Shown here: in pieces, positions 33,678-50,546 of the stretch
Position numbering within the stretch: position 1 is the first letter of the stretch
Layout of the letters: every line of letters starts with the position of its first letter
DNA from: Brevibacterium senegalense
GTDB taxonomy: Bacteria; Actinomycetota; Actinomycetes; Actinomycetales; Brevibacteriaceae
DNA: 64,000 bases
Assembly (NCBI RefSeq): GCF_000285835.1
Contig: NZ_HE978603.1
Coordinates: 250,915-314,914 of the forward strand
Direction of reading: 5' to 3'
The notes under the pieces: model-generated
The model's input: the letters and a program-made list of their open reading frames with translations, nothing else
Database searches by the model: none
Told to the model about the DNA's origin: nothing
Made by a program: the position numbers and the translations under genes

Positions 33678-35243
33678 TCACGGACGCGGCAACGTGGTCT
33701 GCAGCTGGTGGAGCATGTAGGTGGCCGAACTGTCGCATTTCCGCCGCCACGCGTCTAGCGCTGCGGCCTCGTCGCCTGCGTCCAGTGCTTGGAAGATCTC
33801 CTGGGCGCGTTCGACGATGTCCGCGATCGGGTATGCGTAGCGTACGCCGAAGACGGCGACGAACATGAGCAGCTGTTGCGACAGTCCCTCGACCATGGAA
33901 GGGATCCGCCGCAGGGAGGAGGAGCGGGCGAGCGCGTCCTGGAACTGCAGGTCGATCTGGTGGGCCGCCGTCATGTCGTCCGCCTGTGCGGCGGTCTCGA
34001 GGTCCTGCAGAGTCCGCACGACTCCGGCGCGGCCCTCCGGTGTCCACGCGAGGGCCGATCGGACTGCGATGGCACCCAATGCCCGGCGTGCTGAGTAGAG
34101 TTCGACGACATCGTCGACGGTGGGGATCGGGATCGTCATGCCGTGGAGCGTCTGTGTCGTCGCGAGTCCATTCATCGTCAGGGTCCGCAGAGCATCGCGG
34201 ATCCATCCGCGGGACGTCCCGAGGCGGTCGGCCAGGAAGCGCTCCGTCACGAAGTCGCCTCCGGCATAGCGTCCCGCGAGGATCTCCTCACGGATGAGCG
34301 CGATGATCGAGTCCTCCAGACTGAGGCCGGGTGCCAGCTGCGCTCCCGCCGGTTCCCGTCGTGTGGAGCTGCCCTTCGCATCCGCACCGATGGGTTCTGC
34401 CGAGTGCGAGTGCCAGACGAAGACACCGTCCTCGTGGTGATGCCATCGGCGGATGCGGGTTTCGAGGTCGGCGAGGGCTCGGGCCTCCCCCTCGTGGCAC
34501 AGGGCGACGAGAGGATCGAGCATGCCCTGCCAGCGTTCTTCGTCCGTACATGCGTGCGATTCGATCTCCGCGGTTCCCAGCGCGACCGGTGTGGAGGAGA
34601 CGACCAGGAGATTCGCGGGGTCGTGGGTCGTGGCCAGGAGCCGGTCCCAGAAGGCACCGGCCACCTCCTCGCTGTCTGCATCGTCGGCGATCCGGTCACG
34701 CGTGAGGTCGGCGGCCAGCAGGGTTCGCATGCGCCGCGTGATCTGCGTGAGGTTCGACGAGGACCGTGCCCGCGGCGCCGCGCTGCGCGCGAGGACCACC
34801 ACCGAGCTGCCCGGTGCGACGACGACGCCGATGATCGACACGCTTCCGTCGCCTGCCCACGTGCTGAGGCGGTCCAGCAGCCTGCGCGGCGGCGACGGTG
34901 CCCGCCACGCACGTGCGACGGCGGACTGTGAGACACCCAGATCCTGGGCGATCGAACGGCTCGACCACTTCGCGCTGGGGCTGCTGAGCGGTGCCAGGCG
35001 GATGTCGCGGTCGAGGCCCGCCCTGCGCTGGCGACGGTCCGCCTCTGCGGTGAAAGCCCGAGCGCCGTTCTCGCGATATCGCCGGACCCACGTGGAGACG
35101 GTCCGCTGCGAGACGCGGTGCTGTGCGGCCGCCGCCGCGGTGCCGTTCGCCAGAGCGTGGGCGACGAAACGGGCACGGCGACGGACGGTCCGGTCCGTCG
35201 AGTCGAGTGCCCGTTGGAGTCCGTCATCCTCAGTGCCATGCAT
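33678..35243 (-). CDS. Fusion regulator: IS630-type HTH plus GntR/FCD-like module
   Basis: The protein has about 521 residues in three parts. Residues 15-110 resemble the paired helix-turn-helix of IS630-type transposases: ARFVAHALANGTAAAAAQHR, VSQRTVSTWVRRYRENG, then a second unit RSIAQDLGVSQSAVARAW. Residues 125-305 are an unassigned alpha/beta region (VSIIGVVVAPGSSVVVLAR). Residues 315-515 are a GntR winged helix (IREEILAGRYAGGDFVTERF, LGTSRGWIRDALRTLTMNG) followed by an FCD-like helical domain whose usual metal-binding His residues appear replaced (DLQFQDAL, ERAQEIFQAL). The start is uncertain: ATG 35243 or GTG 35264, neither with a ribosome site. It is divergent from the betaine-binding lipoprotein. 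Confidence 0.65.
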   Translation of the reverse strand: MHGTEDDGLQRALDSTDRTVRRRARFVAHALANGTAAAAAQHRVSQRTVSTWVRRYRENGARAFTAEADRRQRRAGLDRDIRLAPLSSPSAKWSSRSIAQDLGVSQSAVARAWRAPSPPRRLLDRLSTWAGDGSVSIIGVVVAPGSSVVVLARSAAPRARSSSNLTQITRRMRTLLAADLTRDRIADDADSEEVAGAFWDRLLATTHDPANLLVVSSTPVALGTAEIESHACTDEERWQGMLDPLVALCHEGEARALADLETRIRRWHHHEDGVFVWHSHSAEPIGADAKGSSTRREPAGAQLAPGLSLEDSIIALIREEILAGRYAGGDFVTERFLADRLGTSRGWIRDALRTLTMNGLATTQTLHGMTIPIPTVDDVVELYSARRALGAIAVRSALAWTPEGRAGVVRTLQDLETAAQADDMTAAHQIDLQFQDALARSSSLRRIPSMVEGLSQQLLMFVAVFGVRYAYPIADIVERAQEIFQALDAGDEAAALDAWRRKCDSSATYMLHQLQTTLPRP

Positions 35244-35368
35244 TACGGAAACAGGGTAACTCACTGACTCAGCAATGGTGGAGATTCTCCGCGAAAGTTC
35301 ACGTCACGGTCAGACTTTCCCTACGGTGTTGACCCACGCACCATCGTCGAAGCGAAGGGAACAACCCT

Positions 35369-36382
35369 ATGACCACGACCCGAGCAACCCGGTCGACGCT
35401 GCTGGCAGCGGCGGCCGCCGCGACTCTCTTCCTGAGCGCCTGCGGTGCCACGGAGGCCGACGCCCCGCAGGACGAGGCCGGTGGCGCTGAGGTCGACCAG
35501 TCGTGGGCGGACTGTGTTCCCGGCGAGGGCTCGGAGGATCTCACGGGGCAGGAGCCCGGTGACGAGGAGATGAGCCTGACGCTCGTCGAGTTCAACGGAT
35601 GGGACGACACGGTGGCCTCGGCACGGCTGACAGCGCACATGCTGACGGAATTCGGCTACGACGTGACGGTCCAGTCGTTCGAGCCGGCCGCCGGCTTCAC
35701 CGGTGTGGCCGAAGGCGACATCGACATCCTCGCCAGCACGATGCTGCCCAATACGCACGCGGACTACATCGATCAGTACGGCGAGAAGATGGAGTCGCAG
35801 AGCTGCTGGTTCAATGAGGCGCGCAACACGATCGCCGTGAACGAGGACTCCCCCGCCCAGTCCCTGTCCGACCTGGCGGAGATGGGCGAGGACTACGACA
35901 CCACGATCGTTGGCATCGAGCCCGGTGCCGGTCTCATGCGCCTGACCCAGGACAGCGTCATCCCCACCTACGGCCTGGAGGACTGGGAGCTCATCGAGTC
36001 CTCGACTCCGGCGATGCTGGGCGCGGTCCAGTCGGCCGTGGAGAACGAGGAGAACATCGCGGTGACGATGTGGCACCCGCACTGGGCGTACGAGGCGTTC
36101 CCGCTGCGGGACCTCGAGGACGACCAGAACGCGTTCGGAGAGGACGAGCTGTTCTACCAGTTCTCCCGGACCGGCTTCACGGAGGAGAACCCCTTTGCGT
36201 CGAAGGTCCTGCACAACTTCGCGATGAAGAACGATCAGATGGCAGACCTGCAGTACGTCATGAACTCGGACGAGCACTACGGAGGCGAGAACCCCGAGGC
36301 CGCCGTCACCGAATGGGCGGAAGACAACCCGGAGTTCTTCGAGGACTGGACGGCGGGCACGCTGACGGATCAGTTCAGCTGA
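35369..36382 (+). CDS. Glycine betaine/choline-type ABC substrate-binding lipoprotein
   Basis: The 337-residue protein has a signal peptide with lipobox FLSACGA, so it is tethered outside the membrane. The OpuAC/ProX fold is shown by LVEFNGWDDTVASARLTAHM, the DIDILASTMLPNTHADY segment (aromatic-box and negatively charged pocket), VGIEPGAGLMRLTQ, VTMWHPHWAYEAFPLR and a C-terminal AAVTEWAEDNPEFFEDW. It binds quaternary ammonium compounds for an ABC importer, but no permease or ATPase gene is nearby, so it is an orphan component. The divergent fusion regulator (126-bp gap) may control it. A degraded relative lies at 10240-10383. Confidence 0.88.
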   Translation: MTTTRATRSTLLAAAAAATLFLSACGATEADAPQDEAGGAEVDQSWADCVPGEGSEDLTGQEPGDEEMSLTLVEFNGWDDTVASARLTAHMLTEFGYDVTVQSFEPAAGFTGVAEGDIDILASTMLPNTHADYIDQYGEKMESQSCWFNEARNTIAVNEDSPAQSLSDLAEMGEDYDTTIVGIEPGAGLMRLTQDSVIPTYGLEDWELIESSTPAMLGAVQSAVENEENIAVTMWHPHWAYEAFPLRDLEDDQNAFGEDELFYQFSRTGFTEENPFASKVLHNFAMKNDQMADLQYVMNSDEHYGGENPEAAVTEWAEDNPEFFEDWTAGTLTDQFS

Positions 36383-36473: not shown

Positions 36474-38012
36474 TCAATCCCCCAGCACCGCGTGGCAGGC
36501 CAGGTGCAGCGCCATCCGCGTCCGGGGGTCTGCGAAGTCGACACCCAGCAGCTGTTGCACGCGGTGGATCCGCATGCTCACCGTGTTCCGATGGATCCCC
36601 ATCGCGGCCGCAGTCGCATTCACGACGGACTCGTGATCGAGATAGGTCGTCAGCGTCTGCAGCAGGTCCTGCGAATCGTTCATGAGCGGTGACAGCAGCG
36701 ACTCGGCCGCGGGCAGGAAGGTGTCGTTGCTCGTCCAGGCGAGCAGCAGCTGATCGAGGCCCAGCGAGTCGACCCGCACACGGTAGCCCGCCGAGGCACG
36801 GTTGACTGCGACCTTGGCCGCGTCGACGGCCTCGGTCACGGTGGTGCGCAACCCCGACTCACCGCTCTGCAGCGACCCGATTCCCATCGCCGCGTCCCAC
36901 GACCGGCGCAGCTCATCGTGGATCGCGCGCAGACCAGCAGCGGTCGCCTCGACGCGCTCAGCGCTCGGGTCGTCTCCCAGCACCACCCACCCCACGGCAG
37001 ACCGACCCAGGATGGTCACTCGCGTGTCGAGTTCACTGGGGCCCAGTTTCTGGGACACCGCCCGGAGCATGCTGTGCGCATCCGTCCGACCGATGCCGCG
37101 GAAGGCGAACCCCAGCTGGTATCCCGCGGTCCGCCAGGCGCGCTCGGCCATCCGGCGCTCGACCTCCGGATTCCTGGCGCCGCGCAGCTCGAGGAACTCG
37201 CGCAAGAGCTCCGACGAGGCGGACGCATCGGTGAGAGCCGCAAGCTCGTCGAGCGTGATGCGGGCGGCGACGGCGGGCATGACGACCTCCGCCATCGTCT
37301 CCAGCGCGCGCAGCTGCACGTCGGCCAGCCCACGGTCGTAGATCACCAGTCGGATGCCTGTGCGAGCGTGGGTCTGGACCCGCACGGTCACGGCGGAAAC
37401 CTCGTCACTGTTCACTCGCGTCACCCACGCGTCGAAGTCGACACTGTCGACGAACCCGTCGGGAAGACCCTCACCGGTGTCGACAAGCGTCCCAGAACGG
37501 TCGACAAGTGCTGCCGCATGACCGATGCTCGAGCTGATGTTGCGGAACAGTCCGCTGAGATCGGCCGCCTCATGCTGGAAGACCGCGGCGACGGAGCGCA
37601 CGTAGTCGAGGGCGAGCGCATCGCTCGACTGCTCGAGCTGCCAGCAGGCGCGGGCGCAGTGAGCCGGTTCTTCGACAGCCAGCACTGTCATGGCGAATCG
37701 TCGGGTGAGTTCCCGTGCACCCGCCGAGGCCGCCGAGGCCCCGGGCACCACGAGGATGCGGTACCCGCGGTCCCGTGCCCGCCGAATGAGCGCATCCTGC
37801 TTCCACGGTGCGTCCGGCAGGGCAGTCGTGAACACGGCGATCGGCGGCGCCGGCGAATCGCCCGGGATGCGATCCGGCGCAGGACCCCTGCCATGCAGGT
37901 CCGGATCGATGTCCACCCCGGCCCACGGGGCGTTCTCCGGGCCCGCGACGTGAAGCAGACCGCCGTTGGCCGGGTGGGCCAACAGCGCCGCGCAGTCAAG
38001 CTCCCGGCTCAT
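36474..38012 (-). CDS. PucR family transcriptional regulator
   Basis: The protein has 512 residues. The N-terminal region is unassigned. The C-terminal HTH_30 module has LLQTLTTYLDHESVVNATAA, then MGIHRNTVSMRIHRVQQLLG and DPRTRMALHLACHA, the standard PucR/CdaR ending. A middle region with GYQLGFAFRGIGRTDAHSML is GGDEF-like, as in the family. PucR-type proteins activate purine, allantoin and hydantoin-like catabolic genes. The ATG at 38010-38012 overlaps the stop of the upstream DUF917 gene as ATGA, so the regulator is the last gene of the six-gene operon it probably controls. Confidence 0.85.
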   Translation of the reverse strand: MSRELDCAALLAHPANGGLLHVAGPENAPWAGVDIDPDLHGRGPAPDRIPGDSPAPPIAVFTTALPDAPWKQDALIRRARDRGYRILVVPGASAASAGARELTRRFAMTVLAVEEPAHCARACWQLEQSSDALALDYVRSVAAVFQHEAADLSGLFRNISSSIGHAAALVDRSGTLVDTGEGLPDGFVDSVDFDAWVTRVNSDEVSAVTVRVQTHARTGIRLVIYDRGLADVQLRALETMAEVVMPAVAARITLDELAALTDASASSELLREFLELRGARNPEVERRMAERAWRTAGYQLGFAFRGIGRTDAHSMLRAVSQKLGPSELDTRVTILGRSAVGWVVLGDDPSAERVEATAAGLRAIHDELRRSWDAAMGIGSLQSGESGLRTTVTEAVDAAKVAVNRASAGYRVRVDSLGLDQLLLAWTSNDTFLPAAESLLSPLMNDSQDLLQTLTTYLDHESVVNATAAAMGIHRNTVSMRIHRVQQLLGVDFADPRTRMALHLACHAVLGD

Positions 38013-39043
38013 GCGCGCACATCCACACCGGTCAGACCGTACGCCGAGGGCAGGACGGCCTCGGCCCTGCCAGCCCGGTCCCACCACCAGGGTGCGGCCT
38101 CGATGACGAGCACAGCGACGTGCGCGTTGACGGTGAGGTCGGCGATCTCCAGGATCGCGTGGGACAAGACGTCGATCGCGATGATCGCGTCCGGTGCCGT
38201 CGCGACGGGTGCTCCGTCCAGGATGACGGCGAGGAACTCCGAACGCGCGACGACCCGCAGCACCTCGCCCTGAGCAGTCCGGATGTCGAAGACCGACAGG
38301 TGCGGATCATCGCGGTCGTGGTCGATCGCCGCCACCCGTCCGATGCCGATGAGCCGCGCCCCGATCGCGTCCGCAGCCTCTGCTGCGGTCGCCTCAGCAG
38401 ACTCGAGGAACGCGCGCCCCAGCGCGAGGCCCCGAGCTGTGTGACCAGTGATCGCGTGGTCAGCCAGGTCGCCCACCGTGAATCCGGCCAGAAGCACGGC
38501 ACCGGCACCGCCCGAGCGCACCATCGAGGCACGGACGAGTGCCTCGATGTCGGCCGGCCGGTCTGTCTCCAGCACCGCCAGCCCTCCCCCGCCGGTCTCG
38601 CAGACGGTGATGAGCCCGGGCAGCTCATCGACGAAGATCGACATCTGGTCGAGCGAGGGCACTGCCCTCCCACTGAGGTCGGCGTCCACGACCATGAGTC
38701 CCTCGCACAGCAGCGGGACGAGTGCGTTGATCCCGCCACCCTCCATCGCGCAGACGGACGGGATGGACGTGCCCAGCCACCGTTCAGCCGCGTCGATGAG
38801 CCGCGCGAATGGATCCCTGTCGACGAAGCGCTCCGTGAGGACCATGGTCGAACCGGCGAATGCGACGGCGCAGCAGGGGGTCTGCGGATCGGCCTCAGCA
38901 ACGTCGACTACGTCGATCGGCCACTCCACGGCCCGCGGCAGCAGCAGCTCCATGAGGCGGGGCGATCCACCGCCACCGGATCCCTGCATTCGGGCGGCGC
39001 ACGCGAGCGCGGGCAGGTCGTCGCGGTGAAGCCTCACTGACAT
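38009..39043 (-). CDS. DUF917 family protein, divergent copy
   Basis: The 344-residue protein has MQGSGGGGSPRLMELLLPRA near the N-terminus, ICAMEGGGINALVPL-like wording (CAMEGGGINALVPLLCEGL) and VVDADLSGRAVPSLDQMS, each aligning with segments of the two upstream DUF917 proteins but clearly drifted (GSGGGG for GTGGGG). The DUF917 family (Pfam PF06032) is linked to hydantoin-type hydrolysis and includes the S-methyl-thiohydantoin desulfurase group. It lies 93 bp after the second paralogue and overlaps pucR. It may be a structural partner subunit rather than a catalyst; this is inference from divergence. Confidence 0.75.
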   Translation of the reverse strand: MSVRLHRDDLPALACAARMQGSGGGGSPRLMELLLPRAVEWPIDVVDVAEADPQTPCCAVAFAGSTMVLTERFVDRDPFARLIDAAERWLGTSIPSVCAMEGGGINALVPLLCEGLMVVDADLSGRAVPSLDQMSIFVDELPGLITVCETGGGGLAVLETDRPADIEALVRASMVRSGGAGAVLLAGFTVGDLADHAITGHTARGLALGRAFLESAEATAAEAADAIGARLIGIGRVAAIDHDRDDPHLSVFDIRTAQGEVLRVVARSEFLAVILDGAPVATAPDAIIAIDVLSHAILEIADLTVNAHVAVLVIEAAPWWWDRAGRAEAVLPSAYGLTGVDVRA

Positions 39044-39136
39044 GAGGCCAAGCGTAAGCGACGGACCGCCCGCGCTCTGAGGCGAACCCTCACCCGGGAG
39101 TCACCCCGCGTCCGGGGGTCATCCCAGGCATGCGAG

Positions 39137-40234
39137 TCACACCTCCGCGCCAGCACCTTCGACGGGCACGAACTCCTCGTCCAGACCGAACGCCTGCGGG
39201 CCGAACGCGTCCAGCGCTTCAGGAGTCCGCATGAGGTCCGGCGTCGAGATGCCCAGGACACTCACGCGCTGGCCGTAGCGAAGCCCTTCCGTCGTGATCG
39301 GCTCGGCGGACTCGTGGTCGACGACGCAGATGAGGTCCGGAACGATCGCGACGAGCTCTCCGTCCCGACGTGCCGTGAGATTCTCGTTCTGGAAGTCGAT
39401 GACGAGCGTGCTGTCGTCTGCCGCCGCCATCGTCGCGCGTCCCTTCGCGAATCCGTCCGTGGTCCGTCGCTCGACGTCGATGACCTTGCCCGTGAACAGG
39501 GTCCTCATGTGCGAGTACAGCGTGGTCGACAGTGTCTCCGCGATCGCGTCGAACGGCGACCGGTGCTCCTCGCGCGCCTCGCGGATCGTCCGTCCCAGTG
39601 CCAGGGCCATGGACAGCGTCCGCGGCACCGCCGTGCGGCGAACGTCCGCGCCGGTCATCGCGTACTCAGCGATGTGGCCCACCCCGCCCAGGCGGATCGT
39701 GATCGCGCGCGCCAGCCACTCCATCTGCCGGTCGTCGTCAGCCGTATCGATGATGACCTTCTCGCCCCGCTCACCGGCCAGCGCCAGCGGGGAGCCGTGC
39801 ACGCCGTAGACCGCGAACGTCTCCATGGACAGCTCCGGGAACGCCCGGCCCATCCCGTCCGCGTCGACGACGGGCAGACCGGTCTCCGCCGCGACGATGA
39901 GGGGGATCATCGAGTTGATGCCGCCGCATTCGATCGGCATGGTCGCCTGCGCGCTGCGGCCCAGATGCTCCTCGAGTGCCCGCAGGGCGGCCGTGGGCTC
40001 GGTCCCCGCAGGGATCTTCTCGACCATGACCGTCGGCGCGCCCATCTGCGCGGTGGGGATGACGAACATGTCGTCCGCGACCTCATCCGGATCGAGGATC
40101 GTGATCGAACCGTCGCCCAGCACGCGCTCCACCAGCATTCGACCGATGTACGGGTCTCCCCCGCCACCGGTGCCCAGCAGCGTGGCGCCGCGCGCCAGAT
40201 CGGCGAGGTGCTCTGCCTTCAGTTCCCAGCTCAT
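39137..40234 (-). CDS. DUF917 family protein
   Basis: The 365-residue protein carries the family marks ARGATLLGTGGGGDPYIGR, TAQMGAPTVMVEKIPAG, IECGGINSMIPLIVAAETGL, VVDADGMGRAFPELSMETF, RTLFTGKVIDVERRTTDGF and CVVDHESAEPITTEGLRYGQ, followed by the C-terminal VSVLGI strand. The reaction of most members is unproven. In operons with HyuA they are thought to act on hydantoin-like rings. ATG 40234 overlaps the previous gene's stop as ATGA. It is closely similar to the upstream paralogue, indicating tandem duplication. Confidence 0.88.
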   Translation of the reverse strand: MSWELKAEHLADLARGATLLGTGGGGDPYIGRMLVERVLGDGSITILDPDEVADDMFVIPTAQMGAPTVMVEKIPAGTEPTAALRALEEHLGRSAQATMPIECGGINSMIPLIVAAETGLPVVDADGMGRAFPELSMETFAVYGVHGSPLALAGERGEKVIIDTADDDRQMEWLARAITIRLGGVGHIAEYAMTGADVRRTAVPRTLSMALALGRTIREAREEHRSPFDAIAETLSTTLYSHMRTLFTGKVIDVERRTTDGFAKGRATMAAADDSTLVIDFQNENLTARRDGELVAIVPDLICVVDHESAEPITTEGLRYGQRVSVLGISTPDLMRTPEALDAFGPQAFGLDEEFVPVEGAGAEV

Positions 40235-41346
40235 GCGCCTGCCTCCTGCAGTCGGACGGTCCCGTCGAATCGGTGTGGATCCAGGTCGTAGCCGAAGTAG
40301 CGGGGTCCCACCAGTTCGATCCCCTCCGGCGAATGCCAGCGCTCGTCCGCCGGCGCGGCGAGGACGGACACACGCTGGCCGTAGCGCAGCGCCTCCGTCG
40401 TGACCGGCTCCCCGGAGTCGTGGTCGAGCACGATGATGAGGTCCGGTGTCGTGGCCATGACCTGGTCACCCAGGCGGGCGACCAGGTGCTCGTTCTGGAA
40501 GCTCAGCTCCAGCCGGTCCGGCTCGCCGGTGCCGTCCGTCGCCGCCGAGGCCGCCTCCAGTCGCGCTGTTCCGCGGGCGAAGCCGGCGTTCGTCTTCCTC
40601 TCCACGTCGACGACCTTGCCGCTGAACAGCGTCCGACCGCCCAGCAGGTCCGCGGTCGCCTGCACGGGGTCCGTCTTCGCGTCCTGAGCCGCAGTGATCG
40701 TCCGGCCGATCTGCAGGCACGTGCGCAGGGAATCCCGGACCAGGGCACGCGCGGCCTGCTCACCGGACATCTGGAAGCCGGAGATCATGATGGAGCAGCC
40801 CATCTCCACTGCGGCGACGCGGGCGATCCTCTCCACCCAGTGATTGTCCACTGCGCGCAGCACCCCCACGTTGCCCTTCTCATCCGCATAGGCGAGCGGT
40901 GAGGCCTCGATCCCGTCCAGGGTGGGCAGCACCATCTGCAGCTCGGGGAACGCACGACCCATGCCGTCACCGTCGATGAGCGGCAGGCCCAGCGCTGCGG
41001 CGGCCACGACGGGGATCGTCGAATTGACCCCACCCACCTCCGCGCACGCGATGTGGGTGATCGGAGCTCCGTAGTGCTCGCTCAGCTCCCGGACGGGACG
41101 CGCCACCTCCTCGATTCCGGGCAGCTTCTCGACCATGACCGTCGGCGCGCCCATCATCGCCGCGGTGACGACGACGGCGTCTGCGGGCACCTCGTCGACG
41201 GACACCACCTCGACGGGGCCGTACTCGGCCAGCGCCTGGGCCGCGAGCAGAGCGCCCACGTAGGGGTCACCGCCTCCGCCGGTGCCCAGGACAGCGGCCC
41301 CGCGCGCCAGGTCAGGAATGAGGTCTGCCGTGATCGTCCAGCTCAC
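40231..41346 (-). CDS. DUF917 family protein
   Basis: The 371-residue protein has ARGAAVLGTGGGGDPYVGAL, TAAMMGAPTVMVEKLPG, CAEVGGVNSTIPVVAAAALG, LIDGDGMGRAFPELQMVLP, GRTLFSGKVVDVERKTNAGF and IVLDHDSGEPVTTEALRYGQ. These match the next gene along the whole length. The start is GTG 41344-41346, one base after the hyuA stop with a G-rich site before it, and aligns exactly with the paralogue's N-terminus (SWxIxADLIPDLARGA). Together with HyuA it is the likely catalytic core of the pathway. Confidence 0.88.
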   Translation of the reverse strand: MSWTITADLIPDLARGAAVLGTGGGGDPYVGALLAAQALAEYGPVEVVSVDEVPADAVVVTAAMMGAPTVMVEKLPGIEEVARPVRELSEHYGAPITHIACAEVGGVNSTIPVVAAAALGLPLIDGDGMGRAFPELQMVLPTLDGIEASPLAYADEKGNVGVLRAVDNHWVERIARVAAVEMGCSIMISGFQMSGEQAARALVRDSLRTCLQIGRTITAAQDAKTDPVQATADLLGGRTLFSGKVVDVERKTNAGFARGTARLEAASAATDGTGEPDRLELSFQNEHLVARLGDQVMATTPDLIIVLDHDSGEPVTTEALRYGQRVSVLAAPADERWHSPEGIELVGPRYFGYDLDPHRFDGTVRLQEAGA

Positions 41347-41347
41347 C

Positions 41348-42895
41348 TCAGGCCCCCATTTCCAGGTCGCCCACGGCCTTCGCCCGGATGCGCGTCGCGT
41401 TGCCGGGCAGATACGGGATGGGGACCTCGTCGAAGTCGATGATGGACACGGTCGACGGCTTGGCACCGGCCGCCACGGCCAGGTCGACGGCCTCGGCGCG
41501 GACCTCGGCGATCTTCGCCTCGCGCTCACCGGCGCTGAATGCGTAGACCTTGTCGATCTCACCGCCCACCTGGGCGATCGAGGCACCGATCGCGTTGGCG
41601 ACCGCATAGTTCTCCGGCCGGGTGACCGCACCGAACAGGGGAAGGGTGTCCGGCAGCAGGATGGAGCCGCCACCCACCACCACGACGGGAATGGGGTCAG
41701 GAGATGTGCGCATCCGGTCGACGGCCTCGGCGATCCGCTCTGCGATCCGGCTCAGTACGCGCTGCACGAAGGCGGGGTCCAGGTGGGCGACCTTCGAAGG
41801 GTCGCCGATCGACGCGGCACCGGACGCGACCGCGATGTCCGTGGCGGTGAGGGTCGAGCCGCCGAAGACCAGGGCCTCCTCCGTGAGCCGGTAGCCGACG
41901 GACTCCGGGCCCACCTCCGCGGTCTCCACGTCGACGATGCTGCCGCCCCCGATCCCGATCGACAGGACGTCGGGCATGCGGAAGTTCGTGCGGATCCCGG
42001 CGACCTTGACCTCGTTCGCGGTCTCACGCGGGAAGCCGTTAATGAGCAGACCGATGTCTGCGGTGGTGCCTCCCACGTCCACAACCGCGCAGGTGTCCAG
42101 GCCGGAGGTGAGTGCGGCGCCGCGCATGGAGTTCGTGGGGCCGGAGGCGAAGGTGGCCACCGGGTACCGGCGGACGTACTCCTCGTCCATGAGCGTGCCG
42201 TCGTTCTGGCTCAGGTAGATCGGAGCGTCGATTCCCTGCTTGCGCACGGCGGCGGCCAGGCCGTCGACGATCTCCGAGGCGAGCTCGCGCAGGGCGGCGT
42301 TGATGATCGTCGCGTTCTCGCGCTCCAGTAGGCCGATCCGGCCGATCTCGTGGGACAGCGAGATCGCGACGTCGTCTCCCAGTTCCTCCGAGATGATCCG
42401 GGCTGCCTCGACCTCCAGGTCGTGGTTGACGGGGCTGAAGACGGAGGACACCGCGACGGACCGGATGCCGTGGGCCGCCATGTCGCGGGCGTGCTCGCGC
42501 AGCTCGTCCGGATCGAGAGGGGAGATCGGGCGGCCGTCGAACTCGTAGCCGCCGTGGGCCAGGTAGACCTGCGCCTGGATAGCCTCGGAGAGGTTCTGAG
42601 GCCAGTCGACCAGCGGGGGCAGCGCCCGGGTGGCGGGCAGTCCCAGGCGCAGTGCGGCGGTGGGTGCCAGGCGCTTGGCCTGGACGAGTGCGTTGATGAA
42701 GTGCGTCGTGCCGATCATGACGGACTCGATGTCCGCATCGTCGAACGGGTGGTCGGACCGCAGGCCCTCGATCGCCTCGATGATCCCCGTCGTGACGTCT
42801 GCTGTGGTGGAGTGCTTGATGCCGGTGAGGGTCCGGGTGCCGTCCATGAGAACGGCGTCCGTGTTGGTGCCACCCACGTCGATGCCGATGTGCAT
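41348..42895 (-). CDS. Hydantoinase/oxoprolinase family protein (HyuA-like)
   Basis: The 515-residue protein is of the ATP-dependent hydantoinase A/oxoprolinase family with an actin-like ATPase fold. HIGIDVGGTNTDAVLMDG is phosphate loop 1, VMIGTTHFINALVQAKRLA follows, CAVVDVGGTTADIGLLING is phosphate loop 2, and LSIGIGGGSIVDV lies near the middle. It would open a cyclic amide ring using ATP. ATG 42895 follows AGAGGAG. The usual HyuB partner is absent; instead three DUF917 genes follow, a known alternative arrangement. It comes second in the operon after the NCS1 permease. Confidence 0.9.
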   Translation of the reverse strand: MHIGIDVGGTNTDAVLMDGTRTLTGIKHSTTADVTTGIIEAIEGLRSDHPFDDADIESVMIGTTHFINALVQAKRLAPTAALRLGLPATRALPPLVDWPQNLSEAIQAQVYLAHGGYEFDGRPISPLDPDELREHARDMAAHGIRSVAVSSVFSPVNHDLEVEAARIISEELGDDVAISLSHEIGRIGLLERENATIINAALRELASEIVDGLAAAVRKQGIDAPIYLSQNDGTLMDEEYVRRYPVATFASGPTNSMRGAALTSGLDTCAVVDVGGTTADIGLLINGFPRETANEVKVAGIRTNFRMPDVLSIGIGGGSIVDVETAEVGPESVGYRLTEEALVFGGSTLTATDIAVASGAASIGDPSKVAHLDPAFVQRVLSRIAERIAEAVDRMRTSPDPIPVVVVGGGSILLPDTLPLFGAVTRPENYAVANAIGASIAQVGGEIDKVYAFSAGEREAKIAEVRAEAVDLAVAAGAKPSTVSIIDFDEVPIPYLPGNATRIRAKAVGDLEMGA

Positions 42896-42996
42896 GCTGA
42901 ATGCTCCTCTGAAGTGTTGTGTCTGAGGTGTGGAGCCCGTCGAGGGCTGAGGTGTGAGTCGCCTGGCGGAGTCACTGTCGCGCAAGCGGCCGGGGA

Positions 42997-44370
42997 TCAC
43001 GCGCTGCGAGGCGCCACTGTCTCGTCAGGAGCAGTGGCCTCAGCGGCGGCGCGAAGCCGCGTGGGCGCATGGCCCAGCCCGCGGACCCAGCCCAGCTTGC
43101 CGGCGATGATGTAGAGGACCATCGAGGTGGCCAGCGACAGCAGCGGCGGGATGCCCCAGGTGACGAAGTAGCCCAGCACCGCGGAGACGAACCAGATGAT
43201 GAGAGTGGCGGGGACCCACCGGGGAGCGGCTACGGGTAGCACCCCCCGGACGCGGGACTCGTCGAGGTCGGCCCGCCAGCGCTTGACGATGAAGTACTCC
43301 GCGACCATGATGCCCGCGATCGGGGGGAAGGCGACGCCAAGGACGGTGAGGAAGTCGGTGAAGCGGCCCAGGATGCCAGCTGCGGCCAGCACAGAACCCA
43401 CGACGCCCAGCACGATGGTGGCCGAGACGCGGTTGAGGTCGCGGCGGAGCACCGTGGAGAAGAAGTTCACCAGGCCCAGAGTCGACGAGTAGAGGTTCCA
43501 GTCGTTGATCTTCAGGGTGCCCGAGATGATGATCAACAGGCCGACGAAGCCCACGGACGACGTCACGATCGCGACGATGTCGCCGCTGAGTGCGGCGTGC
43601 GACAGCAGCACGCCCGCCATGCCGATGACGACCTCGCCCAGGGTCACGCCCACGACGGTCTGCTTGACGACGTCGCCGGCGGAGCGGTTGAAGCGGGTCA
43701 TGTCAGAGGTGATGATCGCACCGACGATGAGGCCGCCGGCCACGATCGCGGTTCCCGCAGCAATGCTCATGGTGGGACCAGGCGCGGGCATCGTCATGAG
43801 CTCCATGAAGTCGTGCTGGGTGAGCTCGCTGATGACGGCCCAGCCCACCAGGATGAGGAACAGCGGGACGGTGATGTTCGCCAGCCACTGCATGCCCACG
43901 AAGCCCACCGCAACGATCGCGGTGACGGCCAGGCCGAAGAGCAGGCTCCACAGCCACATCGGCATGACACCCGGCATGAGGGTGTTGAGCGACTCTGCGG
44001 AGATCGCGGACTGGATGCCGAACCAGCCGATGAGGCTGATGCCGATCGCCAGGCCAACAAGCGAGGCGCCGATCTCTCCGAAGCCGGTCCAGCGGGCCAG
44101 GAGCGAGGTGTTGAGCCCCTCCTTCTGCCCGATGATGCCGACGATGACGATGATGACCTCGAGCAGGACGGAGCCCAGGATCAAGGCGAGGAACGCCTCA
44201 CCGGCCGTCATCGCATAGCCCAGCGTCGCGCCCAGGAGGAACTGGGAGAGGGCGGAGACCTGGCCGAAGCGCTGGACGGCGATGCCGAACCAGTGCTTCT
44301 GCTTGTCGGGTGTCACGCGCGCGAGCGCGAAATCATCAGCGTGCTCCTTGGCACGTACGTCATCAGCCAT
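42997..44370 (-). CDS. NCS1-family permease (cytosine/hydantoin/allantoin type)
   Basis: The 457-residue protein has 12 membrane segments. TPDKQKHWFGIAVQRFGQVS at the first helix, GWFGIQSAISAESLNTLMPG (substrate-site Trp and Gln region of helix 3), MTRFNRSAGDVVKQ and NDWNLYSSTLGLVNFFS are features of CodB-like NCS1 carriers. It brings in nucleobases, hydantoins or related heterocycles with Na+ or H+. ATG 44370 follows AAAGGA. It is first of the operon. The operon's ring-opening genes suggest a hydantoin-like or lactam substrate, but identity is not shown. Confidence 0.88.
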   Translation of the reverse strand: MADDVRAKEHADDFALARVTPDKQKHWFGIAVQRFGQVSALSQFLLGATLGYAMTAGEAFLALILGSVLLEVIIVIVGIIGQKEGLNTSLLARWTGFGEIGASLVGLAIGISLIGWFGIQSAISAESLNTLMPGVMPMWLWSLLFGLAVTAIVAVGFVGMQWLANITVPLFLILVGWAVISELTQHDFMELMTMPAPGPTMSIAAGTAIVAGGLIVGAIITSDMTRFNRSAGDVVKQTVVGVTLGEVVIGMAGVLLSHAALSGDIVAIVTSSVGFVGLLIIISGTLKINDWNLYSSTLGLVNFFSTVLRRDLNRVSATIVLGVVGSVLAAAGILGRFTDFLTVLGVAFPPIAGIMVAEYFIVKRWRADLDESRVRGVLPVAAPRWVPATLIIWFVSAVLGYFVTWGIPPLLSLATSMVLYIIAGKLGWVRGLGHAPTRLRAAAEATAPDETVAPRSA

Positions 44371-44621
44371 CGGCGGTCCTTTGCAAGCGATGTGACCCAG
44401 AGCAGCCGGCGCGGAAACCGCGCTGCGGTGGGTTCGGACCAGAACAGTGTTGCGCGCGACACAGTGCACGCGAAATGGTCATGATGCACTGATTAGCCCG
44501 ACCGATGTGCGCCTCGCACAGACGTGCAGGTCTCCACGCTGCCGACGATCTTTACCCGGCTACCCACACGTCCATTTGAGCATTTAAGTCTCCGACCACC
44601 CCGCGCCACCAATGTCGAGCC
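44371..44621. promoter_or_regulatory. Promoter region of the NCS1-HyuA-DUF917 operon
   Basis: The 251 bases between the permease start and the decayed res gene hold no gene. The part next to the permease is GC-rich, and the far half (44480-44620) is AT-richer. GTGCA-type half sites recur around 44463-44490. No exact operator can be named. The composition change toward 44600 marks the edge of the defence island. Confidence 0.4.
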
Positions 44622-47600
44622 TTAAAGCCTCCAGTTGCTCGGGACCGCAACCGCGTAGTCCGGAACGCCGATCGCCTTGAAGTGCTGACTGGCGGCCATG
44701 ATCTTCGCGTTCTCTGTCGGGCGGCGTTTGTTCTCGTCGTCCGCACTCTTCGTCTCGCGGATCATGTAGACACGTTCTTCGCCCTGCTCGTGCTTGACGA
44801 TCGCCCAGTCGGGGTTATACGGGCCAACTGGAGTATCGATTTTGAACCTGTCCGGCAACTTCATGAAGAACTTTATGTCTTCACGACTGTCCAGCAGTTC
44901 AGCAAACAGCCGTTCAGGCTCCGAGTCAAAACCACATAGTCGAAAATCGATTTGCTGTCGTTCTCAACCTTATACATCTGATCAAGAAAGCGCTCTTTTT
45001 TCGCTTCTCCGTCTGAGCGAAGCTCGCGGAACTCATAGACTGATCCCGCAATCTTCTCATACTGGACACCTTCGACCACAAGTTTCGCAAGCTCGGTCTG
45101 CATGATCCGCTTCGCCAAGGTGATGAAATCGTTGGGATTGTCAATGAACTCCCCCAACCTTTCTGTGCCAACGAGAATATCGACGATCGTCTTGCGCGTC
45201 AATGAGGTCGATTCCTGGAGTTCACTGACGATGTCAGGCAAGTCGTAGCTTCCCTTCAGATTCACCGACCGAGAACCGATCTCGCCCCCCCTTCGCCCCG
45301 CCACGCAGCACCTTGACACCCGCGCGCGTCACCTCGATCCGCAACGGCTCGATCGCTGGCGCGCCTTTGATCGCCTCGATGGAATTGTCAATGATTCTCT
45401 GCCGGTCGACGTTGACCTTGTAGGTAGTGCGTTGGCTGATTGCCTCCCAAAACTTCTCAAACTCAGGGTTAGCATACAACTCTTTGTTAAACCTGCGGCC
45501 ACGGCGGTTTACGATTGGCTTAATATACTTTCCCATATTCGCGCGGCTCATCAACTCAATGATCTCGGACTCGTATTGCGCATAACCTTGAGGCAGGTCG
45601 AGCGTGAACCCCGCTACGTTCGGCTGAAACTTCGAAGTCACGGCACCGTCGTCGATAAAGCCCTTTGCATCCAGGAAGTTCCAAACATCCACAGAACGCT
45701 CATATCCAAACATCTCATCAGTTGTGATCCCCGTGGCATCCAGCAGCGGGATCCGGGAGAACTCCGCCTTGCGCACACGCCCGATCTCAACACCCGCATC
45801 CTTGTATTCCTTCTGGAGCGCGTCGGCGTAATGTTTGTACGACTCGTTCGCCACCACGGTCAGCGTCGCGATGCCACGATCGGCAACACGTCGTAGCCGC
45901 CTTCGCTCTTCGCGACCGGCAGACGTAGACCACGCCCGAGCGTCTGGCGCCGTTCCGTCTCCGCGCCCATTTCGCGGAGGGTACAGATCTGGAAGACGTT
46001 CGGATTGTCCCAGCCCTCGCGCAAGGCAGAGTGGCTGAAGATGAACCGTGTCGGTTCGTTCTCGTCGAGCAGGCGTTCCTTGTCCTGCATGATCAGCTCG
46101 TAAGCGTCGTCGTCGGCCTTGGTGGTGCCGGACGTATCCTGGAACGTATCGGCGGCGCCCTTCTTGCCCTTGAGGACAGAGAAGTAGCCGCGACGCAACT
46201 CGGCCGGATCCTGCGGGAGCAACTCCTGCGACTGCGGCGACTTGGCACGCTCCTCGCGGAACAGCTCGTCGAACCACTGCACAAACTGACCGTTCGCATC
46301 GTTGTTGTTCGAGCCGTCGCCGAGAAAGCCCTCGACCTTGTCTATGAAGAAGAGGCTGAGGACCTTGATGCCCTTGGGGCGCAACTGGGTCTCCTTGCGC
46401 AGGTGCTCCTTGATCGTCTCGCGGATCATCTCCTTGTAGATCGCGCCCGACGATCCTCCGATGCTCTCTCCCTGATACAGGTAGCCGTGCAGCGTCAGGT
46501 CGACGCACGCGGGCTCGATACTCATCTCGTTGACGCGCCAACCGTCGTACTGCGCGTTGCCTGTAAGTCGAGCGTCGGATAATTCCCGGTTCTGGTTCTG
46601 CTTGACCGTCACCACCCGGCGTTCGAGTGAGCCGTCAGCCTTGCGACACGACAGCTCCAGCCGGGCAACCCAGCCCTTGTCGTTTTTGACTTCGACCAGC
46701 TTGATGTACGGCGTCGCATCGGCGCCTTGCTGCTGCACATCGGCCACCACGATTTGCTTCACCAGACCGAGATCGTGCGCGTCGACCGGATCCAGCCGAT
46801 AGACGACGTTGCGGAGCTTCTTATGCGTCGCGCTGTAGCGCAGCGTGAATACCGGGTCCAGTTCGCTCACCGCCGACTGCGAGAGCAGGGATTCCATGTT
46901 CTGTGGCTCGTCCATGATGACGACGGGATGCGTCGCCTTTAGGTAGTCGATTGGTTTGAGGCCGTTCAGCTTGTCGCGCGTCTGGTGGATGATGCGCGTC
47001 GCCGCGTTTCCACGGATCGAGTCGATCGTCATGACCATGATCTGGACGTTGGTCGACGTCGCGAACGACTGCACTTCCTCGGCCGTCTTACCGCTGTAGA
47101 CCGACGAGTCGAAGGTGATGTTGCGCTTCTTATACAGGTTCTCGAAATGCGAGCGCATCAAGCGGATGCTGGTGTTCACGCCCTCACGGATCGCCACACT
47201 CGGCACGAGGATGACGAACTTCGTGAAGTTGTACCGCTCGGCCAGCTCGAAGATTGTGCGGAGGTACACGTAAGTCTTACCCGTACCCGTCTCCATCTCG
47301 ATATCGAAGTCGAGCGCTGAGTCGTCAAAGAGCTTCGAGGCGACCTCGAGGCCATTCTTGTCCTGCACGCGCTGCAGGTTCGCCAGCACCGTGTCGCGGT
47401 CGAGCACCAGACGGTTTCCAACGGCACCGACCTCCCGCGAAAGGTCGAGGTCGAGCGTCGCATTCTCCGTCTCAGCGGGAGCGGCTACCTGGCCGCGAAG
47501 CATCGTCTCAAGCTTCTCAGCGTCCTTCGGCTGCCGGTCGAACAGGTCGACGACGGACTTAATCGCGTCGAGCTGGTAGGGCTGACTGGCGTCGAACTTG

Positions 47601-47629
47601 AATCCGCTGCTAGGTGTGTTGTCTCCCAT
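44622..47629 (-). pseudogene. Type III restriction enzyme subunit Res, three frameshifts
   Basis: Joined across frames, this is a full Res of about 1000 residues. The helicase start has DASQPYQLDAIKSVVDLFDR, the METGTGKTYVYLRT ATP-binding loop, the VVIMDEPQNME box II and TLGRGLRLPVA motif VI. The nuclease end has YNPDWAIV and YMIRETKS, a PD-ExK pair. The frame breaks near 45880, at a 7-C run (45286-45292) and at a 4-A run (44928-44931). Each break is followed by clearly homologous sequence in another frame. Two breaks lie in homopolymers, so sequencing error is possible, but three in one gene beside a split mod gene argue for decay. Confidence 0.8.
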
Positions 47630-47631
47630 GA

Positions 47632-49185
47632 TCAAGCCGTCCAAAGTTCGATGCTCTTGCTCTTGCAGAGCTGAGCTAGGTTGGTTTTGAGTTGGTCGTC
47701 ACCCTGGAATGCGTCCTCGAGAACGATAAGTCGAACAGGTTCCGCGTCCACCACTGCCTGCAGCTGCTCGAGCGTCGGCTTTACCCGCTCGTCCAGATAG
47801 GCGAGCACGATGCCGTCGCCCACCGAGTGCAGGCCCAGGCCGGCCACGTCGACTGGAGCGATCCGTTCGGTCAGCGAGTAACCCTGCTTAAGAAGGATCT
47901 CTGTGAGGAGATCGTCTGTCGAAGCTTCGTCTGCGCTGCTTGACTCGCGAAGATCGAATAAATGTTGCTCGAGTTGATTGCGGTCGACGTCGCTCGACAC
48001 ATTCCACTTCGAGAAGTTGGTATCTGTAAGCGCGAACGCTCTGAATCCTGCATCAAGTGACTGTTCAGAAGCCAGGTCCGCGGAAACCGCTTCTCCCGCT
48101 CGCCGTAGACGCGCGCGGGCGATTTCTGCAACCGTATCAAACCCAGCGTCTCGTGCCACGGAGCCGTTGGGTGTCGGCTCAGGAAGTTGTACCGCAATCC
48201 ACTGACGAGCGCCTCTATCGCGGAGCTGCGCCAACCACGCCCCATGCGCCGTGCTTCCTGACCCCGCAAAAAAATCAAGTATGATATCGCCAGCTCCACT
48301 TCCAGCTTCGATGAAATCGGCGAGTAAGAAAGGTGACTTTGGCGCCTGAAAAATCTTTCCCGTACCGCCAAACAAGTCATTAAACGCACGCTGACCGGAA
48401 TCGGTCGTATGCTCCTTCTCAGCGAGCAACGACTTCAACTTTCGCCGCGCCCCTTCAGCATACTCCTTCACGAAAATTTGGATTCGACAACCAGCCTCAC
48501 GCCCAACTAGTGACTCGGACTCGGCAGTTGCCTTGGGCCGTCCCCATGTCCAGCAGCCCTCGAAACCGTCGTTCCACAGCGGGAAGACCTCAGTGCGATC
48601 AGCAGCTCCTTCCGTGTACACCTTTCCCGCTGGGTCGACATAAAGTGGATAGTACTGATTCGGTCGATTGAAGCGACCAAACTCCCGGTGCGAGTTGCGC
48701 AGGCCCAGCGTTCGGTACATTCCACGCTCATCTTTGTAAGGGTACTCAGACTCCAGCTGCTCGCGTGGCTTCGCTATCGACAACGCGCCTACGGGCAATT
48801 CTCTCTTAGAGTAAACCAATGCATATTCGTGGTTTGTTGCGAAGTGCTTATCTTGCGCTCGGCCACGGGGATTATTCAGAACGGCGAGCTGCGCAACAAA
48901 GCTCGACTCCCCGAACACTTCATCGAGCATCTGACGAAGATGGCCGACTTCGTTCTCGTCAATAGACACGAAAATTACGCCGTCGTCAGTCAACAGATTC
49001 CGCGCGAGCTTTAGTCGCGGGTACATCATGTTGAGCCAGTTGGAATGGTAGCGCCCCTCGGTGTCAGCGTTGGTCGAGAGCTTCTTACCCTCCTCGTTGA
49101 CCTGGCGCGTCCACTCGAGGTAGGTATCGAGGCCCTCTTTGTAGTTGTCCGGGTAGACGAAGTCTTTGCCCGTGTTGTACGGAGG
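47632..49185 (-). pseudogene. Type III DNA methyltransferase Mod, C-terminal part (interrupted)
   Basis: The frame is open from about 49184 and begins inside motif IV: PPYNTGKDFVYPDNYKEGL. It continues with the target-recognition region and motif I DFFAGSGSTAHGAW, which comes after motif IV as in beta-class N6-adenine methyltransferases. The N-terminal 123 codons are found 13 kb away at 62161-62529. A start at ATG 49029 would lack motif IV and could not methylate. It sits two bases before the res start, so mod-res was an operon. The gene is inactivated by the mobile element. Confidence 0.88.
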
Positions 49186-49268: not shown

Positions 49269-50546
49269 TCACTGGTGTGTTGAGCCCTCGATGGAGTGCA
49301 GGTACTGAACGCCGCCCTGGTTGACCACGTCTAGGGCCACCTCACGGAGCTGATCGACGAAGGCATCAGTTCCCGTTCCTGTGTTGACAACCGCCTCTAC
49401 AGGGACGAATTGATAGATCGGGGAGGCGTACTCGGGGTCCAGATAGTGGCCCCCCAGGTGACGATCCGGGATACGCAGCAGGATCGGGATGTCCGATTGC
49501 CGACGAAAGTCGATGGCCGTCTCATAGGCGGACAAGCCGAGTTCACCAGCGGTCAGCCGAACCAACGCAAGAAAGTCTGCGATGAAGGTCTCTACTCGAT
49601 CAGAAGCGACCTCATGAGGACCGAAGAAGGTGTTGGCACCGCCCCTACCGTTACCCATCGCGGAAGCGAGGACCACGGTGCCGCTGTCGAAGATCTGAGC
49701 TTGTGCCTCCCTCCAGCGCGTCGTCTCACCGCTCCTGCCGAAGCCGGCCACCCATCGGCGAAGGCCGGGACGAGGGTTTGAGCGATCCAGCCACTCCAGA
49801 GGGTGAACCTTGACGTGGACCCACGAGTCAGCGAGTTTGAGAGCACCGTCCAGGACTGCTTGCACCTGCTCGCGTGCAAGTCGTTGAGAGTAGGTCGCTT
49901 CTCCAACCGGGCGGGCGATCGCCCCTATCCACAGGGCACCGTCGGGCTCGGGCCTGATGGCCTGGCCAAGGATCTCTCGCAACTCGGACTTGCGCTCACT
50001 TCGAGCATTGAATCGTGCCCGGTAGGCCGACTCAAGCATGCGTTCCGTCATCCAGGCGGTGTCTGGTCCGTTGCGATACGGCGCTCTGAAGCTGTCTCCG
50101 ACGAAGATTAGGTGCGGAGCCTCGTTGGTAGTAGGCACGACGACCGCCAGACCGTATCGCCTGCCGTCTGTGAATGTATGCACCGCGAGATTCAGGATCG
50201 GCGGCGATACACGGTTGAGAGCTACCCGACGCAGATCGCGCACATAGGTATCCGCGGAGAAGTCGGGCGAGACACCAGGGGCCTCGGCCGCGCGTGAGCC
50301 GTTGTCGCGGATACCGAAGACCAGCATCCCGCCGCCGGAGTTGGCCATCGCAGCGAGGTCCTTCGCGAGATCGGACTGCGCGAGAGCGGATGCCGACGGT
50401 GGATCGAGCTTGAAGTCGAGGTCTGCCTTCTCCTCGAGGTTCGCTTCGACGGCGGCATCGAGGAAGTTGATGGTGAGCGGCTCAGGGTCTCGACCTAGCC
50501 ATCGATGGAGCGGGGTGAACACTGAAGAAGTGGTCGAAGCGCTCAT
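49269..50546 (-). CDS. AlbA_2/Schlafen-type putative nucleic-acid-binding protein
   Basis: The protein has 425 residues. Residues 30-110 match the AlbA_2 (Schlafen-like) domain: EEKADLDFKLDPPSASALAQ, then DLAKDLAAMANSGGGMLVFG and a following IRDNG turn. The rest (about 200-425) is not recognised; it includes SYAxxx-like loops and VPVEAVVNTGTGTDAF. Such domains occur in regulators and in several anti-phage and translation-inhibiting proteins. The ATG overlaps the methyltransferase stop as ATGA. Last in the cargo operon, 58 bp from the element end; it may be a control or effector subunit of the system. Confidence 0.72.
   Translation of the reverse strand: MSASTTSSVFTPLHRWLGRDPEPLTINFLDAAVEANLEEKADLDFKLDPPSASALAQSDLAKDLAAMANSGGGMLVFGIRDNGSRAAEAPGVSPDFSADTYVRDLRRVALNRVSPPILNLAVHTFTDGRRYGLAVVVPTTNEAPHLIFVGDSFRAPYRNGPDTAWMTERMLESAYRARFNARSERKSELREILGQAIRPEPDGALWIGAIARPVGEATYSQRLAREQVQAVLDGALKLADSWVHVKVHPLEWLDRSNPRPGLRRWVAGFGRSGETTRWREAQAQIFDSGTVVLASAMGNGRGGANTFFGPHEVASDRVETFIADFLALVRLTAGELGLSAYETAIDFRRQSDIPILLRIPDRHLGGHYLDPEYASPIYQFVPVEAVVNTGTGTDAFVDQLREVALDVVNQGGVQYLHSIEGSTHQ

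Follow-up and report, generated by a model that had tools for sequence, protein, structure and literature searches.

A 64,000-nucleotide (nt) stretch of the Brevibacterium senegalense genome (contig NZ_HE978603.1, positions 250,915 to 314,914), referred to here as the window, carries a six-gene operon that encodes a permease of the NCS1 family, a short HyuA protein, three proteins of the DUF917 family (D1, D2 and D3) and a regulator of the PucR family. The operon is of a recurrent kind, and its diverged third DUF917 copy marks a class of DUF917 proteins coupled to PucR. It is proposed, with a probability of roughly 0.55, that D3 represents an old subfamily of DUF917 proteins that derives from a ring-opening HyuA-DUF917 enzyme and was recruited to PucR as a separate partner that senses a ligand, joined in one branch by a HyuA lacking its ATP site. 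Such a regulator, of two or three proteins, would thus stem from a copy of the enzyme that it controls.

The six genes lie on the minus strand, in the order NCS1-HyuA-D1-D2-D3-PucR, from 44370 to 36474. They and the palindrome that precedes them are as follows (lengths in amino acids, aa):

44506-44520, no strand: palindrome TGTGC-N5-GCACA, TGTGCGAGGCGCACA, candidate PucR operator, 136 nt upstream of the NCS1 start
42997-44370, minus strand: NCS1-family permease, 457 aa; PF02133 at 62.1 bits for a cut-off of 23.5; nearest solved relative, the cytosine permease CodB
41348-42895, minus strand: short HyuA of the ATP-dependent hydantoinase/oxoprolinase type, 515 aa; PF05378 and PF01968 above cut-off
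40231-41346, minus strand: D1, DUF917/S-Me-THD-like protein, 371 aa, GTG start inferred; PF06032 and PF20906 above cut-off; D1 clade
39137-40234, minus strand: D2, DUF917/S-Me-THD-like protein, 365 aa; PF06032 and PF20906 above cut-off; D2 clade
38009-39043, minus strand: D3, diverged DUF917 protein, 344 aa; PF06032 at 94.3 bits and PF20906 at 75.8 bits; PucR-coupled clade
36474-38012, minus strand: PucR-family transcription regulator, 512 aa; PF13556 and PF17853 above cut-off

For the operon as a whole, the somewhat favoured scheme is that NCS1 imports a small cyclic amide or imide, that HyuA, D1 and D2 open its ring with ATP and that D3 and PucR sense it. HyuA, an ATP-binding protein of the ASKHA type, would activate a carbonyl of the ring by phosphorylating it, and the D1/D2 pair, in place of the absent HyuB, would complete the hydrolysis. 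D3, rather than being a third catalytic copy, probably binds the substrate or a product through its old active site and would pass this signal to PucR, which would in turn control the operon through the palindrome WGTGC-N5-GCACW found upstream of NCS1.

DUF917 proteins are common in soil and host-associated bacteria and in archaea and are hardly characterised. The analysis separates a pair coupled to HyuA (D1, D2) from a class coupled to PucR (D3) and supplies signature residues as well as a candidate operator, which allows the annotations "hydantoinase" and "desulfurase" to be tested for each class. If the PucR-coupled class is indeed a sensor, this would explain how the substrate is read in many PucR operons and would provide a ready genetic system consisting of one operon, one palindrome and one partner protein.

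DUF917 copies located directly upstream of PucR

Each DUF917 gene of the fetched loci (designated below by L and a number) was scored for a PucR gene directly following on the same strand, an arrangement found for 35 of the 134 copies. In a tree of these 134 rows with an outgroup of five, obtained by a quick search with the Shimodaira-Hasegawa-like approximate likelihood ratio test (SH-aLRT) as the only support, a single clade (SH-aLRT 99) contains 34 of the 35. An earlier tree of 66 rows without outgroup gave weak relations among the D3 copies, which were assigned by position and afterwards by tree. The outgroup itself (L104-L108) is a distant DUF917 group without adjacent HyuA that may hold a different activity. 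A prediction set beforehand was borne out in three new genomes (L143, L144 and L145), whose weaker third copies stand directly before PucR; none of the three strong DUF917 copies that accompany HyuA in L146 does so.

D1, D2 and D3 each exceed the Pfam cut-offs of 27 bits for the two domains of DUF917, currently called S-Me-THD_N and S-Me-THD_C. The initial annotation described D1 and D2 as close paralogues and D3 as strongly diverged, which agrees with identities of 45-46% between D1 and D2 and of 26-29% between D3 and either of them, and with the sequence GSGGGG of D3 in place of GTGGGG. The catalytic residues are not missing from all three copies, a case that this annotation had envisaged: of 37 conserved residues, D1 and D2 retain all and D3 retains 26. 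These residues were defined on copies not located upstream of PucR, which somewhat favours the latter copies. In all 25 loci that hold a PucR-upstream copy together with another one, the PucR-upstream copy retains the fewest of them. Three residues (R323, T315 and K250 in D2 numbering) occur in 0 of 34 PucR-coupled copies and in 82, 79 and 81, respectively, of the 85 others, and two more are rare in the PucR-coupled class (P67 in 4/34, D253 in 3/34). D124, D126, R130, E284 and P299 are among those retained at ≥90% in both classes. The PucR-coupled subfamily is a definition introduced in this analysis; the D3 of the window is directly upstream of PucR, branches within the clade and lacks R323, T315 and K250.

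The association between D3 and PucR also appears in their junction and in the mobility of the pair. As judged from inferred start codons, a 4-nt overlap between the D3 stop and a start codon of the PucR frame is present in 17 of 20 pairs (16 of 19 relatives and the window); in the three others, the start codon comes 3 nt behind the stop. In L147 and L148, the D3-PucR pair is on the strand opposite to HyuA-DUF917, about 4 kb apart from it in L148, and in L035, L036 and L043 the pair is located ahead of racemase-NCS1-HyuA-D1.

D3 and PucR furthermore share their pace of evolution. Relative to HyuA, the median distances over 13 complete operons are 1.4 for NCS1, 1.7 for D1, 1.2 for D2, 4.1 for D3 and 4.8 for PucR, and a simpler distance gives 1.5, 1.7, 1.2, 3.8 and 3.9. 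After removal of the NCS1/HyuA background, D3 correlates with PucR (0.72-0.82) and D1 with D2 (0.55-0.65), compared with 0.17-0.26 for D3-D1 and 0.22-0.39 for D3-D2. In a reduced set of nine operons, none of 2000 permutations reached the observed value for D3-PucR or for D1-D2, and 289 and 169 did for D1-D3 and D2-D3. Since D2 and D3 are neighbours too, neighbourhood alone would not explain the D3-PucR and D1-D2 pairs.

The best hint that the PucR-coupled clade serves regulation comes from seven loci (L041, L093 and L099-L103) in which a PucR-coupled DUF917 protein without glycine loop is encoded beside a short HyuA devoid of both ATP motifs, because an enzymatic role is difficult to assign to a HyuA-DUF917 pair that lacks the ATP site and adjoins PucR. 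Genes for full HyuA and HyuB are found near these loci. The layout of L153 and L154 resembles that of the seven, and L149 and L150, in other gene orders, combine a DUF917 gene near PucR with a HyuA of poor match.

The PucR regulator and its candidate operator

Like other PucR-family regulators, the window PucR has C-terminal HTH_30 (74.8 bits) and GGDEF_2 (28.8 bits) domains, both above cut-off. The N-terminal sensor domain PF07905 was not detected in it at an E-value of 0.001, and it differs from them by the separate enzyme-like partner encoded directly upstream. Among ten PucR relatives, PF07905 reached 25.5 bits in L035 and 15.6 bits in L074, for a cut-off of 33.5, and the other eight gave no match.

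The palindrome upstream of NCS1 is the sole match to WGTGC-N5-GCACW in the window, where 0.38 would be expected, so that it is not significant by itself; the strict pattern occurs at eight places in the genome. Visual inspection first revealed it in 14 upstream regions, and it was then scored with a leave-one-out matrix in 22 of the 25 loci in which D3 precedes PucR, the upstream region being missing from the contig or fetched stretch of the other three (L037, L084 and L085). The best upstream site has p < 0.05 in 22/22 loci, and 16 of them are at the lowest value possible with 400 background windows; part of this background is coding sequence, which may make the motif look stronger than it is. 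Eight scored loci were outside the initial 14; for three of them (L035, L145 and L147), the regions were set by hand after the loci had already appeared in a scan. The five remaining loci (L036, L038, L043, L144 and L148) all have p < 0.05. Sites of at least 11.5 bits are absent from some PucR loci (e.g., L110, L155, L161 and L162). These comparisons make it a candidate PucR site, whatever the involvement of D3.

Readings of the third DUF917 copy

Several observations weigh against D3 as a sensor. The branches of the D3 copies are long, and long-branch attraction may contribute to their single clade; in BLAST comparisons, many third copies resemble the window D3 no more closely than they do D1 or D2. 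In L086, a D1-type copy with 37/37 residues precedes a PucR of the same class and D3 is missing, and several other PucR loci have no D3 (e.g., L040, L088, L091, L110, L155 and L161). PucR covaries weakly with D1 and D2 (0.37-0.38), values reached by 44 and 23 of 2000 permutations, and is therefore not wholly independent of them. Sites of at least 11.5 bits are also found in loci without D3, some of them near the start of PucR or of the first gene (L109, L137, L158 and L159), so that the palindrome speaks for PucR and not for D3. Finally, the putative catalytic residues are mostly retained in D3 copies (glycine loop 20/20, E72 20, E102 18, N107 18, D126 20, E172 20 and E284 19 of 20), and D3 could thus still be an enzyme.

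This last possibility, in which D3 catalyses another step, for example the hydrolysis of a later intermediate or a different stereoisomer, and adjoins PucR merely because both end the operon, is the strongest of the alternatives, even if it seems rather unlikely. Besides the retention of active-site residues and glycine loop in most copies, it is consistent with the purifying selection acting on D3, whose ratio of nonsynonymous to synonymous substitution rates (dN/dS) is 0.13-0.27 in five genome pairs, and with two loci, L146 and that of Haloferax mediterranei, in which three DUF917 copies accompany HyuA and which indicate that three copies need not imply a regulator. It accounts less well for the loss of R323, T315 and K250 from every PucR-coupled copy, for the evolution of D3 in step with PucR and for the five loci cited above (L147, L148, L035, L036 and L043) in which D3 follows PucR and not the catabolic genes. 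The same dN/dS values rule out a dead or decaying third copy; they are above those of both D1 and D2 in four of the five pairs, and D2 is higher in the fifth (L076-L077).

A hetero-oligomer had also been suggested by the initial annotation. That D1, D2 and D3 form one hydrolase, in which D3 would be a non-catalytic structural subunit, appears less likely still. The three genes are co-transcribed by layout and conserved together in 14 genomes, including that of the window, but D1 and D2 covary with each other and D3 with either of them far less, D3-PucR pairs exist on the other strand, and HyuA-D1-D2 exists without D3: in Nonomuraea gerenzanensis (L137), NCS1-HyuA-D1-D2 is not followed by D3. 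As D3 belongs to an old subfamily found upstream of PucR in other genomes, the suggestion is better confined to D1 and D2. For the same reason, the other explanation offered for D3, neofunctionalisation after duplication, does not hold in the form of a recent duplicate in this genome, and the trees rule out such a duplication. A role of D3 as a sensor, drawn from position, residue losses and covariation, keeps a slight preference.

HyuA, the D1/D2 pair and the surroundings of the operon

The six genes had been described as co-directional with mostly touching or overlapping ends, and coordinates and gaps on the minus strand agree with this: with inferred start codons, there are gaps of 101 nt (NCS1/HyuA), 1 nt (HyuA/D1) and 93 nt (D2/D3) and overlaps of 4 nt (D1/D2 and D3/PucR). 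Chance is excluded as the source of this arrangement, because the complete order is found in 13 other actinobacterial genomes (L033, L034, L074-L083 and L143); in a further metagenome-assembled genome (MAG; G037), the contig ends before PucR.

Taken together, NCS1, HyuA and DUF917 point most naturally to uptake followed by ring opening at the expense of ATP, and this part of the initial annotation stands. The ATP motifs of HyuA (DVGGTNTD and DVGGTTADIG) are intact, and their residues D6, G8-G9-T10, D273 and G275-G276-T277 are invariant across the 50 short HyuA compared. The protein is related to the N-methylhydantoinase 7hk5 (E 2.9e-23). The reported absence of HyuB extends beyond the window, with 0 matches to PF02538 across the whole genome (99.17% complete). 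Since the ATP motifs are intact, HyuB is missing and DUF917 pairs stand beside HyuA in most HyuA-DUF917 loci, DUF917 would be the natural second subunit. In L125 and L126, NCS1-D1-short HyuA-D2 is followed by full-length HyuA and HyuB, both kinds of ATP-dependent enzyme thus being encoded in one gene run. A 6.8-kb contig (L124; G698:C432) holds three deep-branching DUF917 genes and an NCS1-type transporter gene without HyuA.

The combination of a HyuA carrying both ATP motifs with a second subunit is shared with the HyuA/HyuB hydantoinases, the 5-oxoprolinases and the caprolactamase CapAB. In CapA, the ATP-site mutants D11A and D295A lost almost all activity (0.05% and 0.4% conversion; PMC8453981), and the mutated residues probably correspond to the motif aspartates of the window HyuA. 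However, the latter is short (515 aa versus 689 positions in the CapA model), DUF917 replaces HyuB, and the DUF917 proteins have no histidines conserved as in the zinc site of CapB. DUF917 genes have also been reported, together with hydantoin-type genes, in cyclodipeptide oxidase clusters, where a hydantoinase-like role was suggested for a family called uncharacterised; the accessible part of that source describes neither a PucR-coupled subfamily nor a D1/D2 pairing (PMC11055893). A literature search, made mostly outside subscription journals, returned no paper on PucR-coupled DUF917 proteins.

The only solved structure found is that of CV_3147 from Chromobacterium violaceum (2o3i), an uncharacterised protein related in sequence to D2 (E 8e-23) and to D3 (E 4e-7). 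AlphaFold models built from four aligned sequences each, with a mean predicted local distance difference test score of 57.1 for D3 and 55.1 for D2, were not used for site arguments; a Foldseek search with the low-confidence D2 model, the sole model searched, gave CV_3147 as its one significant match. Fusions of DUF917 with HyuA or PucR were also considered and none was established, the long frames seen in several genomes overlapping other frames of high-GC DNA.

The initial annotation went further and proposed a full pathway for a hydantoin-like compound, two points that find no support here. The operon contains neither a racemase nor a carbamoylase gene. An Asp/Glu/hydantoin racemase gene is present in related operons (L035, L036, L038, L043, L084 and L144), and the M20 neighbour in L038 matches an acetylornithine-deacetylase model and not a carbamoylase. 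Elsewhere, the window genome encodes one amidase that fits the hydantoinase/carbamoylase model (283.5 bits, contig C7) and one member of the Asp/Glu racemase family. As for the substrate, the transporter matches CodB (7qoa, E 1e-21) better than it does Mhp1, a hydantoin permease (E 1e-6), and its score with the subfamily model TIGR00800 is 86.9 for a cut-off of 353.1.

Thiohydantoin and S-methyl thiohydantoin desulfurases, which act in ergothioneine breakdown, share the two-domain family PF06032 + PF20906 with the window proteins. The family owes its Pfam and NCBIfam names to these enzymes, and the matches are significant, but it is improbable that the substrate is such a thiohydantoin and that D1 and D2 are desulfurases, because D1, D2 and D3 score 107.1, 98.9 and 43.2 bits with the S-methyl enzyme (NF058532, equivalog cut-off 450) and 76.7, 82.2 and 33.0 bits with the other (NF058529, cut-off 440), and desulfuration would not need an ATP-dependent HyuA.

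Genome samples of the order, the class and the phylum contained PF06032 in 40/396, 42/394 and 18/396 cases, respectively, and 12 of the 60 genomes of the family sample had any match to D3. The window D3 is 98% identical to the copy of a B. senegalense MAG (DYUK01000011). D1 and D2 form separate clades across families (SH-aLRT 95 and 99, respectively), which makes their duplication old. The window HyuA shares 78-86% identity with those of operons from another family (f19), compared with 68-69% for two operons of its own family (L033 and L034). Being closer to the former, the operon of the window suggests transfer between families.

The core of HyuA with two DUF917 copies is more widespread still. 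Rhizobium ruizarguesonis has HyuA with two DUF917 copies, both nearest to D2, and a racemase, and H. mediterranei has DUF917-HyuA-DUF917-DUF917 with an Lrp regulator. No relative was found on viral contigs.

No RNA family was detected between 36000 and 45500 of the window. On the 3' side of PucR, genes at 33678-35264 and 35369-36382 encode a GntR/FCD regulator, whose frame also includes a homeodomain-like HTH at the N-terminus, and a binding protein of the choline/glycine-betaine type (OpuAC); in the loci examined, they are not conserved alongside the operon. On the other side, the operon adjoins a type III restriction-modification pair (44873-49029, minus strand) located in DNA of lower GC content (about 0.58-0.60). 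It comprises a ResIII helicase domain (47644-45860) and an N6/N4 methylase (49029-47632), and its restriction gene is apparently split across more than one frame, as judged from the layout of open reading frames. A second defence-like unit is found beyond it, in which a protein with a Schlafen AlbA_2 domain (49269-50546) is encoded beside MmeI-type restriction-modification domains (methylase, target recognition and C-terminal; 50543-52000, minus strand).

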